A DNA stretch of 64,000 nt from contig NZ_FXTB01000008.1 in assembly GCF_900182605.1 (NCBI RefSeq), forward strand, positions 124,001 to 188,000, given 5' to 3'. Below are positions 28,803 to 35,422 of this stretch, one piece after another; position 1 is the first letter of the stretch, and every line of letters starts with the position of its first letter. The translations under genes and the position numbers were made by a program. Below the pieces are notes generated by a model. That model did not search any database, was not told the origin of the DNA, and saw nothing but the letters and a program-made list of their open reading frames with translations. The DNA is from Saccharicrinis carchari. GTDB lineage: Bacteria; Bacteroidota; Bacteroidia; Bacteroidales; Marinilabiliaceae.

Positions 28803-30668
28803 ATGAATTACCTTTCTGTAGAGAATCTGACCCATCATTGGGGCGACATACAATTATTCGACAACTTAACTTTTGGGGTATCGGAGGGACAAAAAATTGG
28901 CCTGATTGCCCGTAACGGAACCGGAAAAACTACCTTACTGAATATCCTTGCCGGTGTGCTGCCTAACGAAAGCGGACAGGTTACCTACCGCAAGGGTGTT
29001 TCGGTGGGATACCTGCAGCAGCTCCCTGTTTTAAATAATGACCATACCGTTATGGAAGAAATCTTCGCCTCGGACAATCCGCAGGTAATAGCCATAAAAG
29101 CCTACGAAAAAGCACTGAGTGAAGAAAACCACGATGAATTGGGCATACTAATTGAGGAGCTGGACAAGCTAAATGCCTGGGATTACGAATCACAGGTTAA
29201 ACTTATCCTGTCGCAGCTCAAAATAACCAACTTCAACCAGCAGATAGGCCAACTATCGGGCGGACAAAAAAAGAGGGTGGCCCTGGCCAACCTGCTTATC
29301 AACGAGCCGCAATTTTTAATACTGGACGAGCCCACCAACCACCTGGACCTGGAAATGATAGAGTGGTTAGAAGCCTATCTGGAACGATCCAGATGTACCC
29401 TGATGATGGTAACCCACGATCGCTACTTTTTAGATCGTGTATGCAACGAGATCATGGAACTGGCCGATCAAACAATTTATAACTACAAGGGGAACTATCA
29501 AAATTTTCTGGAAAAACGAGAAGAACGCATACAAACCCAAAACGCACAAGTAGATAAAGCCAAAAACCTGCTTAAGAAAGAACAGGAATGGATGAATCGT
29601 ATGCCACAGGCACGTGCTACCAAAGCCAAATATCGTATCGATGCCTTTTACGATTTAAAGAAAAAAGCCGACAGCGGCACGACTGAGCAGCATTTAGAGC
29701 TAAATATTCAATCGGCGCGTTTGGGTAAAAAAATTATTGAATGCCACCATGTAAACAAAGCTTTTGGCAATTTAAAAATACTAAATGATTTTAGCTACAA
29801 ATTTGCCCAAGGCGAAAAAGTAGGGATTATCGGTAAAAACGGAACCGGAAAAACTACTTTCCTAAATATAATAACGGGTGCGTTAGAGCCTGACAGTGGC
29901 CATCTGGAAAAAGGCGAAACGGTAGTAGTAGGACACTACCGTCAGAGCGGTATGGATATAGATCCTACAAAAAGAGTGCTGGATGTTATTTCGGATATAT
30001 CGGAGCACATAACATTGGGTTCGGGCAATACCATGAGCCCGGCACAATTTCTGCGTTATTTTCTGTTCCCCAACGAGATGCACCATGTGCTGGTTGAAAA
30101 AATTAGTGGCGGGGAAAAAAAACGGCTGTACCTAATGACTGTACTAATGAAAAACCCTAACTTTTTAATTCTGGATGAGCCAACCAACGATTTAGATATA
30201 TTTACTTTAAGTCTGTTGGAAGAATATCTTTTGAGTTTTAAGGGTTGCGTTATCATCGTATCGCACGACCGATATTTTATGGACAGAATAGTAGATCATC
30301 TTTTTGTATTTAAAGGAGAAGGGAAAATAAAAGACTTTCCGGGTAACTACTCTGCTTACCACGAATATAAATTAGGGCAGGAAAAAGAGCAAAAAAAATT
30401 AGAAAAAGTCCAAAAGGAACCCGTGAAACCTTTTCCTGTAAAAGAAAAAGTGCGCAAACTTACTTTTAAGGAGAAAAAGGAAATGGAAAAGCTGGAAAAA
30501 GAAATAGAACAACTAAATACTGAAAAAGAAACGCTGGAAAACGAGTTGAACTCAGGAAACTTAAATGCCGAGGCCCTTATCGAAAAAGCTAAACGCCTGA
30601 GCACCATCATTAAGTTGGTGGACGAAAATGAAATGCGCTGGCTAGAACTAAGCGAGATAGAAGGGTAA
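28803..30668 (+). CDS. ABC-F family ATP-binding protein (Uup-like)
   Basis: Soluble ABC-F ATPase with two ATP-binding cassettes and no membrane segments. Proteins of this class act on the ribosome. Walker A motifs are ARNGTGKTTLL (about 36-46) and GKNGTGKTTFL (about 343-353). ABC signatures are LSGGQKKR and SGGEKKR, and Walker B motifs are FLILDEPTNHLD and FLILDEPTNDLD. The linker of about 80 residues between cassettes is charged. The C-terminal 80 or so residues form a coiled coil (EKKEMEKLEKEIEQLNTEK), as in Uup. Length of 621 matches Uup. The second Walker B is followed by DLD in place of HLD. Confidence 0.95.
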   Translation: MNYLSVENLTHHWGDIQLFDNLTFGVSEGQKIGLIARNGTGKTTLLNILAGVLPNESGQVTYRKGVSVGYLQQLPVLNNDHTVMEEIFASDNPQVIAIKAYEKALSEENHDELGILIEELDKLNAWDYESQVKLILSQLKITNFNQQIGQLSGGQKKRVALANLLINEPQFLILDEPTNHLDLEMIEWLEAYLERSRCTLMMVTHDRYFLDRVCNEIMELADQTIYNYKGNYQNFLEKREERIQTQNAQVDKAKNLLKKEQEWMNRMPQARATKAKYRIDAFYDLKKKADSGTTEQHLELNIQSARLGKKIIECHHVNKAFGNLKILNDFSYKFAQGEKVGIIGKNGTGKTTFLNIITGALEPDSGHLEKGETVVVGHYRQSGMDIDPTKRVLDVISDISEHITLGSGNTMSPAQFLRYFLFPNEMHHVLVEKISGGEKKRLYLMTVLMKNPNFLILDEPTNDLDIFTLSLLEEYLLSFKGCVIIVSHDRYFMDRIVDHLFVFKGEGKIKDFPGNYSAYHEYKLGQEKEQKKLEKVQKEPVKPFPVKEKVRKLTFKEKKEMEKLEKEIEQLNTEKETLENELNSGNLNAEALIEKAKRLSTIIKLVDENEMRWLELSEIEG

Positions 30669-31067
30669 GGGATAATACGTCGGGATATTGTTGAGGTCGT
30701 ATTAGGGAAGATAGGTGATATGCGATTGGCGATATGCAATTTACTAAATATGATTTGCAGCTTGGCCTACCCCAAACCCCTAAAGGGGCTTCGATTTACA
30801 GCTTTGCAATGTCATTTAAAAGAATATGAATTCTCATATTTGAAGAGTGTCCAAGTCCCCTTTAGGGGATTTAGGGGTAAAACGGAAGAATTTACGGCTT
30901 GGGTATCTGGGAGAAATAATATTTAAATAGATATAGTCAACAATTTACCTACCTCTAAAACTTATCAATTATTACTAAACCAGCTTCATCACTTTCAAAA
31001 TAACAGCAGGAAAACAGAAAATTAACTATTTTTTACCCAAAAAATTTCCTTACAATTTTTTTTATAC
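30669..31067. repeat. Gap with an inverted-repeat pair of the CCCCTAAAGGGG type
   Basis: No gene. Arms at about 30771-30790 (CCCAAACCCCTAAAGGGG) and 30853-30877 (AAGTCCCCTTTAGGGGATTT and onward) form a long imperfect inverted repeat of about 105 bases. Repeats of this kind are, to my recollection, common between genes in Bacteroidota. It may fold into an RNA hairpin that ends the ABC-F transcript, or be a small non-autonomous element. Confidence 0.5.
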
Positions 31068-31075
31068 TACATTTG
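31068..31075 (+). promoter_or_regulatory. Candidate -7 box of the aromatic operon
   Basis: TACATTTG matches the Bacteroidota TAnnTTTG box and lies 20 bases ahead of the leader-peptide ATG. The -33 region is a poor match. It would place the transcript start near 31080. Confidence 0.55.
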
Positions 31076-31095
31076 CATGCATTAAACAAGATATA

Positions 31096-31173
31096 ATGAC
31101 CCACATTACTTTTTTTTATAGCTTTTATTTTTACTTTTTTGGATTCTGCAATCAAAAAGAGGTGGGTAAATAG
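31096..31173 (+). CDS. Phe/Tyr-rich leader peptide of the aromatic operon
   Basis: A 25-codon open frame, ATG 31096-31098 to TAG 31171-31173. Residues 6-17 read FFYSFYFYFFGF, so seven of the 25 residues are Phe and three are Tyr. It precedes an intrinsic terminator (31198-31230) and the operon that makes Phe and Tyr. Its last codons contain AGGTGGG (31160-31166), nearly the same as the 3' arm of the terminator stem and able to pair with the 5' arm. This is the layout of a ribosome-mediated attenuator: low charged tRNA-Phe/Tyr would stall the ribosome and let the antiterminator form. It is inferred from sequence only but is hard to explain otherwise. Confidence 0.85.
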   Translation: MTHITFFYSFYFYFFGFCNQKEVGK

Positions 31174-31208
31174 TATATAAATTTTAACAAAAAATTTAAA
31201 GTCCCGCC
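31160..31208 (+). promoter_or_regulatory. Predicted antiterminator pairing
   Basis: AGGTGGG at 31160-31166 can pair with CCCGCCT at 31203-31209 (six standard pairs and one G-U). This uses up the 5' arm of the terminator. The first strand lies inside the leader-peptide frame, where a ribosome at the stop codon would cover it. Confidence 0.65.
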
Positions 31209-31230
31209 TTACACAGGTGGGACTTTTTTT
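31198..31230 (+). terminator. Intrinsic terminator (attenuator) ahead of the prephenate dehydratase gene
   Basis: An 11-bp stem (AAAGTCCCGCC at 31198-31208 with GGTGGGACTTT at 31216-31226, one G-U pair), loop of seven bases, then a run of seven T. It lies 24 bases past the leader stop and 47 bases ahead of the first structural gene, so it must be read through for the operon to be expressed. Confidence 0.88.
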
Positions 31231-31277
31231 GTTTTAAGTATGGACTTAGAATCACGGACTGATATTATAATTACATT

Positions 31278-32183
31278 ATGAAACAAACTAAAAAGGCAGC
31301 AATACAAGGCGGAGGTGGTTCCAACCACGAAATTGCAGCCAAAGCCTACTTTAACACCGAGGATATAGAAATGGTGGAATGCAACACTTTTGAAGAGATT
31401 TTTTCGACCTTAAAGAAAGACAGTTCCGTGTACGGCATTATTGCCATCGAAAACACTTTAGTGGGTAGCATCCTGCAAAACTATACCCTGCTTAAAGATT
31501 CAGGCCTGGTAATTATTGGGGAGTACAAACTGCGGATTAAACATCAATTATTGGCTTTACCCGGTCAATCCATCGAGGACATTACCGAGGTTCACTCCCA
31601 CCCCATGGCGCTGGCTCAATGTGCCGAGTTCTTTAAACAATATCCACACATTAAAATGATATCGCGCGACGATACTGCCTTGAGCGGTAAATGGATCCGC
31701 GACAACCAACTGAAAGGCATGGCCGCCATAGCCCCCCAGCTGGCTGCCGAAAAATATGACCTGGAAATAATTGCCAAAGACATTGAGACCAACAAACGTA
31801 ATTTCACACGTTTTTTAATCATCTCCGACAAGGGAAAAATTGAAGTAGAAGAACTATTGGTTGCTAATAAAGTGAACAAATCATCCTTGGTTTTTTCTCT
31901 TCCGCACTCCGAGGGTAGTTTGTCAAAAGTTTTATCGGTACTGGCCTTCTACAACATCAACCTCTCAAAAATACAATCCCTGCCCATTGTTGGCCACGAA
32001 TGGGAGTATATGTTTTATATCGATTTGGTATTCGACGATTACAACCGCTATCTGCAATCCCTGGATGCCATACGCCCCTTAACCAAAAACCTGAAGAATC
32101 TGGGCGAATATCACGTTTGTAAAAGATCCTTTGATACGGTGAGCAACGACAACAGGTCACTTTCTGAACAAAAAACATTTTAA
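31278..32183 (+). CDS. pheA: Prephenate dehydratase
   Basis: Converts prephenate to phenylpyruvate in Phe biosynthesis. The 301 residues hold the dehydratase domain (IQGGGGSNHEIAAKAYF, GIIAIENTLVGSI, VHSHPMALAQC, and the catalytic TRF in NFTRFLII), then a C-terminal ACT regulatory domain (GSLSKVLSVLAFYNINLSKI), so feedback inhibition by Phe is likely. There is no fused chorismate mutase, which is supplied by the DAHP synthase fusion two genes on. It is the first gene after the leader-peptide attenuator. Its stop is two bases ahead of the aminotransferase start. Confidence 0.94.
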   Translation: MKQTKKAAIQGGGGSNHEIAAKAYFNTEDIEMVECNTFEEIFSTLKKDSSVYGIIAIENTLVGSILQNYTLLKDSGLVIIGEYKLRIKHQLLALPGQSIEDITEVHSHPMALAQCAEFFKQYPHIKMISRDDTALSGKWIRDNQLKGMAAIAPQLAAEKYDLEIIAKDIETNKRNFTRFLIISDKGKIEVEELLVANKVNKSSLVFSLPHSEGSLSKVLSVLAFYNINLSKIQSLPIVGHEWEYMFYIDLVFDDYNRYLQSLDAIRPLTKNLKNLGEYHVCKRSFDTVSNDNRSLSEQKTF

Positions 32184-32185
32184 TC

Positions 32186-33343
32186 ATGCAAATTCATCCG
32201 GCCAATCGCATTAGCGAAGTAAAAGAATACTATTTCTCGAAAAAACTGAGGGAAATAGATCAGATGCGCCAACAGGGTATCGACATTATCAACCTGGGCA
32301 TTGGGAACCCCGACAGACCTCCACATCCGGAAGTATTAAAAGAACTCTACAATTCTTCATCGGAGCTTGGAAACCATGGTTATCAGAGCTACATCGGTGT
32401 ACCCGAACTACGCAACGCTTTTGCCCAATGGTACAAAGCGCACTTTAAGGTTACATTAAATCCTGCCAGTGAAATTTTGCCATTAATAGGATCCAAAGAA
32501 GGTATTATGCATATTTCGATGGCTTTTTTAAATCCGGGCGATGAGGTTTTAGTTCCCAACCCGGGCTATCCCACCTATGCCTCGGTATCGAATTTGGTAG
32601 AGGCTAAAATGATTAGCTACGATTTGGAAGAAGAGCAGGACTGGCAGCCCGACTTTGACAAGCTGGAAGCTATGGATTTGAGTAAGGTGAAGCTGATGTG
32701 GGTAAATTACCCCAACATGCCCACAGGAGCCAATGCCACGCCGGAACTCTTGGAGAAACTGGTGCGCTTTGGCAAAAAACACAACATCCTTATTTGTAAT
32801 GATAACCCCTATAGTTTTATATTAAACGATAATCCACTAAGCATTTTTCGCGTTGAGGGAGCCAAAGAAACCTGCATCGAGTTAAACTCCCTAAGCAAAT
32901 CGCACAATATGGCGGGCTGGCGTGTAGGCATGGTAGCCGCAGCACCCGAACTTATCCAGTACATAATCCGCGTAAAAAGCAACGTAGACAGTGGTATGTT
33001 TAAACCCTTACAATTAGCCGCCGCTAAAGCATTGAGTTTAGATAAAGACTGGTACACAGAGGTGAACCGGGCATATAAGGAACGCCGAGAGCTGGCCTGG
33101 AAAATAATGGATATGTTGGGATGCAGCTACAGTAAAAACCAATCGGGTATGTTTATCTGGGCAAAAATACCCGACAGTGCTGAGTCGCCCGAACAACTTA
33201 CAGATGCAGTATTGAAAAATGCACGCGTTTTTATTACACCGGGCAGCATATTCGGCAAAGGGGGCAATCGGCATATTCGCATCTCGCTTTGCTCCACTAC
33301 AGCGGTACTAAACGAATCCATACAAAGAATAAGCAATAGCTAG
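32186..33343 (+). CDS. PLP-dependent class I/II aminotransferase (probably aromatic)
   Basis: Fold-type I aminotransferase, 385 residues. The position between prephenate dehydratase and DAHP synthase points to transamination of phenylpyruvate and 4-hydroxyphenylpyruvate, or of prephenate. Visible motifs are NLGIGNPDRPPHP, the substrate loop GYQSYIGVPELR, YPNMPTGA, the PLP-binding lysine in SLSKSHNMAGWRVGM (near residue 236), and the C-terminal carboxylate-binding Arg in HIRISLC. Sequence style is close to LL-diaminopimelate-type aminotransferases, so substrate is from context. It is coupled to the upstream gene by a two-base gap. Confidence 0.88.
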   Translation: MQIHPANRISEVKEYYFSKKLREIDQMRQQGIDIINLGIGNPDRPPHPEVLKELYNSSSELGNHGYQSYIGVPELRNAFAQWYKAHFKVTLNPASEILPLIGSKEGIMHISMAFLNPGDEVLVPNPGYPTYASVSNLVEAKMISYDLEEEQDWQPDFDKLEAMDLSKVKLMWVNYPNMPTGANATPELLEKLVRFGKKHNILICNDNPYSFILNDNPLSIFRVEGAKETCIELNSLSKSHNMAGWRVGMVAAAPELIQYIIRVKSNVDSGMFKPLQLAAAKALSLDKDWYTEVNRAYKERRELAWKIMDMLGCSYSKNQSGMFIWAKIPDSAESPEQLTDAVLKNARVFITPGSIFGKGGNRHIRISLCSTTAVLNESIQRISNS

Positions 33344-33412: not shown

Positions 33413-34510
33413 ATGACAAAGAATGCTAAAATGATACAATTAGACCTTGAGAAAATCAGCCTTCCGGGATTAGACCTGGAACGCCCCTGGATGATTGCCG
33501 GCCCGTGCAGCGCCGAAACAGAAGAGCAGGTTTTAGAAACTGCCACCCAATTGTCCGAAGCGGGATATAAAATATTTAGAGCCGGTATTTGGAAACCCCG
33601 TACACGTCCGGGTGCTTTTGAAGGTGTAGGTACCTTAGGCCTACCCTGGCTAAAAAGAGTAAAAGAAGAAACCGGTATGTTTGTGGGTACCGAAGTGGCC
33701 AATGCAAACCATGTTTTTGAAGCGATCAAAGCGGGTATCGACATTCTTTGGATTGGTGCCAGAACCACGGCTAATCCGTTTGCTGTTCAGGAAATTGCCG
33801 ATGCACTTAAGGGTGTTGACCTTCCTGTTTTGGTAAAAAACCCGGTTAATCCAGATTTAGAATTATGGATTGGCGCACTGGAAAGAGTTAACCAGGCAGG
33901 TATCAAAAAGCTGGCAGCCATTCACCGCGGTTTCTCCACCTACGACAAAAGCAAGTATCGTAACCATCCGCAATGGCAAATTCCTATCGAGCTCAAACGA
34001 CGTATTCCTAATTTGCCCATCATCTGCGACCCTTCGCACATAGGTGGTAAGAGCGAATTGATTTACGAAATTTCACAAGAAGCCATGGATCTTAATTTCG
34101 ATGGTTTGTTGGTAGAGTCGCACCGCTGCCCCGCAAAAGCATGGAGTGATGCCAGCCAACAGGTAACCCCCACCGAGCTTAAGGAAATTACCGATAAAAT
34201 AGTGCTTCGTGCCCCTCAAATTGGACAAAAACCCAGGGTTACGCTGGATCAACTACGCCGTGAAATAGATAAGCTGGACGATTCCGTTCTGGAGGTGCTT
34301 CAGAAAAGAATGGAGATATCCGAAGCCATCGGTATCTATAAAAAAGAAAACAATATCACCATTTTACAAACCCGACGCTACGATGAAATTATGAACGACC
34401 GGAAGGAGCGTGGTGCAAAACTTGGTTTGTCGGAGGAGTTCCTGACTGCCCTGTTTGAAGACATACACCAGGAATCCGTAGCCCGCCAGAATAAGATAAT
34501 GAATAAATAG
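33413..34510 (+). CDS. Bifunctional DAHP synthase (type I-beta)-chorismate mutase
   Basis: First step of the shikimate pathway joined to the branch-point step to prephenate. Residues about 20-270 form the KDO8P-synthase-like DAHP synthase barrel (MIAGPCSAET, RAGIWKPRTRPGAFEG, IGARTTANPFAVQE, CDPSHIGGKSEL, ESHRCP). Residues about 275-365 are an AroQ-type chorismate mutase (LDQLRREIDKLDDSVLEVLQKRMEI, IGIYKKENNI). This order, with the mutase at the C-terminus, is known from Prevotella and Porphyromonas, where prephenate controls the synthase through the mutase domain. A 69-base gap separates it from the aminotransferase, and it shares the operon strand. Confidence 0.94.
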   Translation: MTKNAKMIQLDLEKISLPGLDLERPWMIAGPCSAETEEQVLETATQLSEAGYKIFRAGIWKPRTRPGAFEGVGTLGLPWLKRVKEETGMFVGTEVANANHVFEAIKAGIDILWIGARTTANPFAVQEIADALKGVDLPVLVKNPVNPDLELWIGALERVNQAGIKKLAAIHRGFSTYDKSKYRNHPQWQIPIELKRRIPNLPIICDPSHIGGKSELIYEISQEAMDLNFDGLLVESHRCPAKAWSDASQQVTPTELKEITDKIVLRAPQIGQKPRVTLDQLRREIDKLDDSVLEVLQKRMEISEAIGIYKKENNITILQTRRYDEIMNDRKERGAKLGLSEEFLTALFEDIHQESVARQNKIMNK

Positions 34511-34645: not shown

Positions 34646-35422
34646 ATGAAAATATGCATACTGGGTGCCGGTAAAATGGGCACATGGCTAACCGATGCGC
34701 TCTGCCTGAGCCATGATGTTGCTATTTACGATCCAAATTTTGAAAAACTGAAATATATTTTCAATACGCAAAGATTAACCCAGCTGGAAGAAATAAGACA
34801 GTTTGAGCCGGAGCTATTGATTAATGCCGTTACGCTAAAATATACCATTGCTGCGTTTGAAGAGGTGATGCCTTATCTGCCCAAAAGTTGTATCATTTCG
34901 GATATCTCGTCGGTAAAAACGGGCTTTCAGGAGTATTACGACAAAACCGGTATGCGCTATGTTTCTACCCATCCAATGTTTGGCCCTACTTTTGGTAACC
35001 TAAAGGCATTGCGCGAGCACCATGCCATTATCATTTCTCAGGGCGACCATTTAGGCAAGGCTTTTTTTAAAGACTTTTTTGGTAACCTGGGACTTAACAT
35101 CCATGAGTACACCTTTATTCAACATGACGAAACCATTGCCTATTCTTTGTCCGTTCCTTTTTCATCCACGCTTGTTTTTGCGGCCTGTATGAAAAAGCAG
35201 GATGCTCCCGGAACTACTTTCCATAAACACCTGGATATTGCCAAAGGACTGCTTAGTGAAGACGATTATCTGTTATCCGAAATTTTATTTAATCCCTTTA
35301 CCGCCGGACAAGTAGAGAAGATAAGGCTGAAGCTGAAAGACTTGTTGAATATTATCGAAAATAAGGATTCGGATAAGATGAAAACATTTTTGGCCGAGGT
35401 GAGAGGAAATATTCAGGAATAA
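34646..35422 (+). CDS. tyrA: Prephenate dehydrogenase
   Basis: Oxidative decarboxylation of prephenate to 4-hydroxyphenylpyruvate, the Tyr branch. The 258 residues begin with a Rossmann motif ICILGAGKMGTWLTDAL. SDISSVKTGFQEYY, THPMFGPTFGNL (the catalytic His region) and IQHDETIAYSLSVPF follow, in the usual order for TyrA. There is no mutase or ACT domain, so it is the short single-function form. Last gene of the aromatic operon, which thus makes both Phe and Tyr and explains why both residues fill the leader peptide. Confidence 0.92.
   Translation: MKICILGAGKMGTWLTDALCLSHDVAIYDPNFEKLKYIFNTQRLTQLEEIRQFEPELLINAVTLKYTIAAFEEVMPYLPKSCIISDISSVKTGFQEYYDKTGMRYVSTHPMFGPTFGNLKALREHHAIIISQGDHLGKAFFKDFFGNLGLNIHEYTFIQHDETIAYSLSVPFSSTLVFAACMKKQDAPGTTFHKHLDIAKGLLSEDDYLLSEILFNPFTAGQVEKIRLKLKDLLNIIENKDSDKMKTFLAEVRGNIQE

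Follow-up and report, generated by a model that had tools for sequence, protein, structure and literature searches.

Genes and leader features at the locus

In the 64,000-nucleotide stretch of Saccharicrinis carchari DNA analyzed here (the window), four genes on the forward strand follow the leader region at positions 31068 to 31277. The first gene past this region is pheA, encoding prephenate dehydratase (31278-32183; PF00800, 4.1e-55, with an ACT match below the cutoff). It is followed by genes encoding a class I/II aminotransferase (32186-33343; PF00155), a DAHP synthase fused to chorismate mutase (33413-34510; PF00793 and PF01817), and a tyrA-like prephenate dehydrogenase (34646-35422; PF02153). 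Together, these four genes cover the branch leading to Phe and Tyr as well as entry into the common pathway, and the domain matches bear out the initial annotation, which had placed Phe/Tyr biosynthesis genes here. Gene order and spacing suggest that pheA through the tyrA-like gene are read as one transcript. Upstream of the leader, an inverted pair of CCCCTAAAGGGG is found at 30777-30788 on the forward strand and 30857-30868 on the reverse strand. This sequence has nine copies in the genome, some of them also close inverted pairs, compared with none for a reversed control, and looks like a small repeat element.

The leader region, which is A+T-rich, carries a single Phe/Tyr leader module on the forward strand. 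A putative -7 promoter box, TACATTTG (31068-31075), lies 20 bases 5′ of an ATG. It matches TAnnTTTG, which we take to be the -7 consensus of the Bacteroidota type, and transcription is predicted to start a few bases 3′ of it. The ATG opens a 25-codon frame (31096-31173) encoding MTHITFFYSFYFYFFGFCNQKEVGK and ending in a stop codon at 31171-31173. As the initial annotation had read it, the frame contains seven Phe and three Tyr codons; these control codons fall at 31111-31146. Between the stop codon and the stem of a terminator hairpin there are 24 bases, the same count as obtained before. The 5′ arm of the hairpin (region 3, 31198-31209) and its 3′ arm (region 4, 31215-31226) form 12 pairs, 6 of them G-C, rather than the 11 first described, and the T-run noted earlier is present at 31224-31230. 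The predicted energy of this terminator is -18.3 kcal/mol, and none of 200 shuffled sequences did as well.

A competing structure had also been noticed in the initial annotation, and we recovered it. The segment AGGTGGG at 31160-31166, near the end of the frame, recurs at 31215-31221 within the terminator's 3′ arm and can pair with CCCGCCT at 31203-31209. Addition of the pair 31159-31210 gives a predicted antiterminator helix of eight pairs, in which 31159-31166 is the 5′ arm (region 2) and part of region 3, 31203-31210, doubles as the 3′ arm. The core of region 2 (31160) begins 16 nt past the position at which the last Phe codon starts. The antiterminator, folded together with an inner A-T hairpin, is predicted at -13.4 kcal/mol (1 of 200 shuffles as good), and the fold of the whole leader, 31082-31234, has a z score of -4.4 (0 of 200). 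Within 31159-31234, the terminator is the more stable state, at -18.8 kcal/mol versus -11 to -12 kcal/mol, and the antiterminator would therefore have to win by forming first.

No cis-regulatory Rfam family, the T-box included, reached its gathering score in the window, nor was a T-box among the 21 matches with E values of up to 5 at 30950-31300. The best of these 21 weak matches, most of them from unrelated families, was RF01859 (Phe_leader); at 28.2 bits against a gathering score of 55, membership in this family was rejected. RF01859 describes the gammaproteobacterial pheA leader, in which a Phe-rich frame and a choice between antiterminator and terminator precede pheA. All three of these elements are found in the window. 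Unlike RF01859, the window mixes Tyr codons into the frame, and DAHP synthase/chorismate mutase and prephenate dehydrogenase genes follow. The pheA leader of Escherichia coli is Phe-only.

Distribution of the leader and its promoter box

The initial annotation had proposed comparing the leader among related genomes. We searched for pheA in the family, order, class, and phylum of the window and found matches in 65 of 71, 108 of 247, 58 of 197, and 128 of 148 genomes, respectively, with 95 of the last lying outside the class. Contigs of named genomes were also searched, contributing the best 80 of 585 confirmed stretches. Matches were mostly picked best first. We examined 62 of the 66 places found in the family, 70 of the 109 from the order (two already in the set), and 50 of the 58 from the class (three already in the set), as well as 23 of the 95 outside-class genomes. 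From the resulting 298 loci we removed 7 with too short an upstream sequence and 20 whose upstream 230 bases were the same as those of another locus. The final set comprised 271 distinct pheA upstream regions. These loci are related by descent, so the counts that follow are not independent.

An ATG frame with at least 7 Phe/Tyr codons per 12 was present in 220 of the 271 regions, far beyond the genus of the window. Among controls, the same threshold was reached by 29 of 5,420 dinucleotide shuffles, by a single one of the 271 reverse strands, and by none of 110 stretches taken from his, ilv, and trp loci (both strands). With at least 6 Phe/Tyr codons, the count rose to 226 of 271, compared with 159 of 5,420 shuffles, 15 of 271 reverse strands, and 3 of 110 control stretches. 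By set, this lower threshold was reached in 60/60 regions of the family, 61/66 of the order, 30/45 of the class, 63/67 of the named contigs (best matches), and 9/10 further in-class loci from the phylum search. Named carriers include Bacteroides fragilis, B. finegoldii, B. xylanisolvens, Phocaeicola vulgatus, Segatella, and two Prevotella. Upstream sequences identical to those of family members were found in an uncultured Carboxylicivirga, a Marinilabiliaceae metagenome-assembled genome (MAG), a Bacteroidales MAG, Natronoflexus, and Alkalitalea, the last two of which belong to the Bacteroidales family of the window.

The composition of the leaders is mixed throughout. Among the 220, all have at least three Phe codons, 218 have at least two Tyr codons, and 48 also contain Trp, while the order of Phe and Tyr and the tail of the leader vary widely. 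Shorter frames in which Trp is mixed with Tyr and Phe, such as MKLTQTYFWFYPTLSTGG, were seen in family f128 (L138, L139, and L144), and leaders of this Trp-holding type may sense all three aromatic amino acids. The remaining 51 regions fell below 7 Phe/Tyr codons, 45 of them below 6; 6 of these 45 have a Phe/Tyr frame with a GTG start (L100, L125, L198, L287, L288, and L342). In-class loci where we found no such frame 5′ of pheA comprise seven of f124 (L143, L146, L147, and L150 to L153), two of g252 (L160 and L168), and single loci such as L084, L089, L122, and L295. In g252, the frame directly 5′ of pheA resembles the end of aroA, and pheA may therefore be part of a longer operon there.

Outside the class, 3 of the 23 loci examined reached at least 6 Phe/Tyr codons, namely, all three of the best matches and none of the 20 weaker ones. 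The three carriers (L179, L192, and L193) have a Phe/Tyr leader with a terminator, and their pheA genes (E values of 1e-66 to 1e-74) match far better than those of most outside-class genomes and are unusually close to those of Bacteroidia. Relatives in two of their families (L206 and L208) lack the leader. In two of the three carriers, the best pairing is short, at 4 to 5 bases; no -7 box was found within 70 bases. Our guess is that pheA and the attenuator were transferred together from Bacteroidia.

The promoter box is similarly widespread. In 176 of 220 loci, TAnnTTTG occurs no more than 70 nt 5′ of the ATG that opens the leader, compared with 4% of shuffles; in 128 of those 176, the distance is 25 to 40 nt. 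A TTG lies 17 to 23 nt 5′ of the box in 136 of 170 loci; the window, unlike most of its relatives, has no TTG in the 30 bases 5′ of its box. These observations bear on an alternative explanation, in which the hairpin simply terminates transcription arriving from upstream, the pheA promoter lies downstream of it, and the Phe/Tyr frame is a by-product of T-rich DNA. The A+T-rich surroundings, the missing TTG, and a weak promoter-like match at 31241-31268 would fit such an arrangement. The previous gene, however, ends at 30668, 530 bases away, and the Phe/Tyr runs occur far above their frequency in shuffles and on the reverse strand. The presence of the -7 box ahead of 176 of 220 leaders argues against a transcription start downstream of the terminator, and region 2 tracks the terminator arm from locus to locus, as described below. 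We therefore regard a plain terminator as very unlikely.

Pairing and spacing of the proposed attenuator arms

A terminator follows the leader in 175 of 226 loci by a strict rule, and a tolerant rule allowing mismatches and longer loops recovered one in 45 of the other 51. In the 175 loci, we compared the pairing of each region 2 with its own region 3 to pairing with arms from elsewhere. The native pairing beat the mean foreign arm in 162 loci and the mean shuffled arm in 167, and a median of 10% of foreign arms paired as well as the native one. The paired cores of regions 2 and 4 have 89% of their letters in common. The 141 loci with a good antiterminator contain 79 distinct region 3 strings, some of which differ only in length.

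We assessed covariation in an alignment of 32 family loci that we selected from 50; the 18 omitted were a single near copy and lineages whose layout differs. In the terminator, 92.4% of cells are paired and four pairs are changed on both sides, a number reached by 12 of 500 shuffles; the count of further pair types is not above that in shuffles (491 of 500 reach it). In the antiterminator, 92.2% of cells are paired and two pairs are doubly changed (392 of 500 shuffles reach two), and its covariation score exceeds that of all 500 shuffles. As judged from these comparisons, the arms of both stems, for which the initial annotation had suggested looking for compensatory changes, do change together in a compensating way, with the antiterminator less clear within the family alignment.

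The position of region 2 is tied to the control codons. A pairing filter retained 141 of the 175 loci. In these, the median distance from the first base of the last Phe/Tyr codon to the start of region 2 is 15 nt, with an interquartile range of 3 and a standard deviation of 2.7, whereas the distance of region 2 to the stop codon has a standard deviation of 11.2. When the filter was removed and the whole leader was searchable, 148 of 175 loci placed region 2 at 11 to 19 nt, compared with 33% for shuffled arms. Region 2 lies inside the frame in 84 of the 141 loci, spans the stop codon in 13, and falls at or beyond it in the other 44, and its starts are divided among the three codon phases as 48, 46, and 47. 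The lack of a codon phase and the 44 cases at or after the stop codon indicate that region 2 is kept as RNA. The front edge of a stalled ribosome lies approximately 12 to 15 nt ahead. The fixed reach of region 2 from the control codons would thus be what a stalled ribosome requires.

In the trp and phe leaders, a 1:2 helix serves as a pause or protector structure, and the window contains a candidate. Region 1 (ACCCAC, 31099-31104) could form six pairs with GTGGGT at 31162-31167; some family members share this possibility, and sister genera have GCTCAC/GTGGGC at the equivalent place, but it is not clearly conserved. In the family alignment, 56.8% of the cells of this helix are paired versus 57.5% in shuffles, a count that suffers because the start is displaced in some rows. 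Counted per sequence at 9 or more, the helix was found in 35 of 40 family loci, compared with 39% of shuffles and 80% of swapped leaders, and in 23 of 101 loci outside the family, compared with 14% and 19%, respectively. Neither the alignment nor the per-sequence counts support a 1:2 pause helix as a general feature.

We also considered an attenuator that senses a ligand or a protein (a T-box, a riboswitch, or the target of an RNA-binding protein) through the same terminator, with the frame being incidental. The layout of terminator and antiterminator is in itself common to such systems. Yet in 101 loci outside the family, the sequence that leads up to region 2 shows little structure (mean z score of -0.45, with 18 of 101 below -1.5), and the window holds no cis-regulatory Rfam family at gathering score. 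The codon run and the spacing that separates it from region 2 would also go unexplained, and we consider such a sensor extremely improbable.

Together, the leader frame, the terminator, the antiterminator, and their spacing across loci agree with the design first proposed for 31068-31277, and we assign a probability of roughly 0.93 to its being a ribosome-mediated transcription attenuator of the Phe/Tyr operon. In such an attenuator, transcription would begin just 5′ of the leader frame, with a ribosome trailing the polymerase. With ample charged tRNA-Phe and tRNA-Tyr, the ribosome would reach the stop codon at 31171-31173 and cover region 2, so that regions 3 and 4 would form the terminator and RNA synthesis would stop before pheA. 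If either charged tRNA became scarce, the ribosome would stall in the Phe/Tyr run with its front edge just short of region 2, which would then be free to pair with region 3, preventing the terminator and allowing transcription of the operon. That the ribosome would leave or cover region 2 in this manner we infer from the spacing, and the codon content suggests that charging of both tRNAs would be sensed. The operon is thus probably read only when Phe or Tyr runs short.

Tandem leaders, other operons, and significance

In 16 loci, two Phe/Tyr leaders stand in series 5′ of pheA (L069, L071, L075 to L078, L088, L093, L114, L118, L124, L127, L130, L140, L149, and L346). These were picked from 31 listed; in the other 15, the extra frame is without a terminator. 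A terminator was found past the first leader in 15 of the 16 tandem loci and past the second in 13. Of the 28 modules with a terminator, 26 have region 2 at 10 to 19 nt past the last control codon, where the search was begun, the exceptions being the first module of L127 (8 nt) and the second of L346 (4 nt). The -7 box is present ahead of the first leader in 11 of 16 loci and ahead of the second in none. Two short frames and two attenuators per leader are likewise seen in Salmonella mgtCBR, as described in PMC3641672; the mgtCBR attenuators respond to ATP and proline, whereas both modules here are of the Phe/Tyr type.

We also surveyed His, Ilv, and Trp leaders 5′ of hisG, ilvD, and trpE in 21 genomes of the family of the window (L219 to L270 and L271 to L272), which gave the following raw counts. 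An upstream frame with at least four His codons was found at 14 of 16 hisG loci, with a terminator in 13, and a Leu/Ile/Val run was found at 15 of 16 ilvD loci, with a terminator in 12. Upstream of trpE, 19 of 20 loci carry Trp as pairs, triplets, or Trp-His-Trp, and a terminator was found in 19. The genome of the window itself has Phe/Tyr, Trp, and Ilv leaders with terminators. Its hisG is preceded by a frame with four His codons, for which the scan found no terminator, and no Leu/Ile/Val-type leader precedes its second ilvD copy. At the 13 of 16 hisG loci with a terminator, region 2 lies a median of 17 nt from the control codons. A tighter distance rule for His was rejected, as the spread to the control codons (standard deviation of 4.2) is no narrower than that to the stop codon (4.3). 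For Ilv and Trp, the arm search often chose segments inside the codon run, and the spacing is not usable. From these sequences, attenuation looks like the general rule for amino acid operons in this family.

These leaders also help to distinguish sensing of tRNA charging from arrest of a nascent chain, in which the leader peptide would respond to free Phe or Tyr in the ribosome. An arrest peptide would fit the hydrophobic character and strong conservation of the Phe/Tyr-rich segment. It would not account for the wide variation in Phe/Tyr order and tail or for a region 2 without codon phase, and the His, Ilv, and Trp relatives use their cognate codons, as tRNA sensing predicts. Nascent-chain arrest is accordingly a most improbable reading of the leader.

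Leader-peptide attenuation is best known from Proteobacteria. Our search of the literature, which included few subscription journals, turned up no description of how the Phe/Tyr leader is built, of the 15-nt spacing, of its occurrence across the class, or of the tandem arrangements, and no bench-proven leader-peptide attenuator in Bacteroidota. The initial annotation, which was not aware of a worked-out example in this phylum, needs one correction, in that earlier clues exist. A 2021 study of Flavobacterium psychrophilum (PMC9723704) measured 5′ transcribed regions and reported strong clues for leader-peptide attenuation before amino acid operons. It lists a 5′ element upstream of pheA that is present in other Flavobacteriaceae genera and an element upstream of hisG. 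The phylum, the gene, and the mechanism proposed for amino acid operons are the same as here; unlike our analysis of the window, the text available to us gives no leader sequence or arms, and the pheA element is not explicitly presented there as a leader-peptide case. To that extent, the finding is anticipated for Flavobacteriaceae and is not wholly new.

Other reports touch on the subject. Long 5′ untranslated regions in Bacteroides thetaiotaomicron hold short frames reminiscent of leader peptides (PMC7366714). PMC2965389 states that, until the hisS case from Firmicutes that it presents, no such case had been demonstrated beyond Proteobacteria and Actinobacteria, and PMC8305728, in what it offers on the his genes of the phylum, mentions attenuation for E. 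coli and Salmonella enterica only. A comparative study of attenuation by Lopatovskaya et al. (2010) is cited in PMC4833913.

In one combined proposal, which we judge somewhat more probable than its negation, Bacteroidia would control their Phe/Tyr operons by a pared-down form of ribosome-mediated attenuation that, at least in the family of the window, would extend to the His, Ilv, and Trp operons. In this form, the frame would lie near the promoter, mostly with no conserved pause helix, and the antiterminator arm would lie approximately 15 nt past the last control codon, a position that would read out the front edge of the stalled ribosome. Several lineages would place two Phe/Tyr modules behind one promoter box, giving two gates for the same signal. 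If true, this would imply close coupling of transcription and translation from the first codons in Bacteroidota. Because attenuation needs a ribosome close behind the polymerase in the first hundred bases, such coupling would be testable with a simple reporter, and the 15-nt rule would offer an independent, sequence-only measure of ribosome reach. The comparative support within Bacteroidales, which extends to records from Bacteroides, Phocaeicola, Parabacteroides, and Prevotella, suggests that attenuation, which no Rfam family reports in the window, is a main control of amino acid synthesis in these abundant bacteria.
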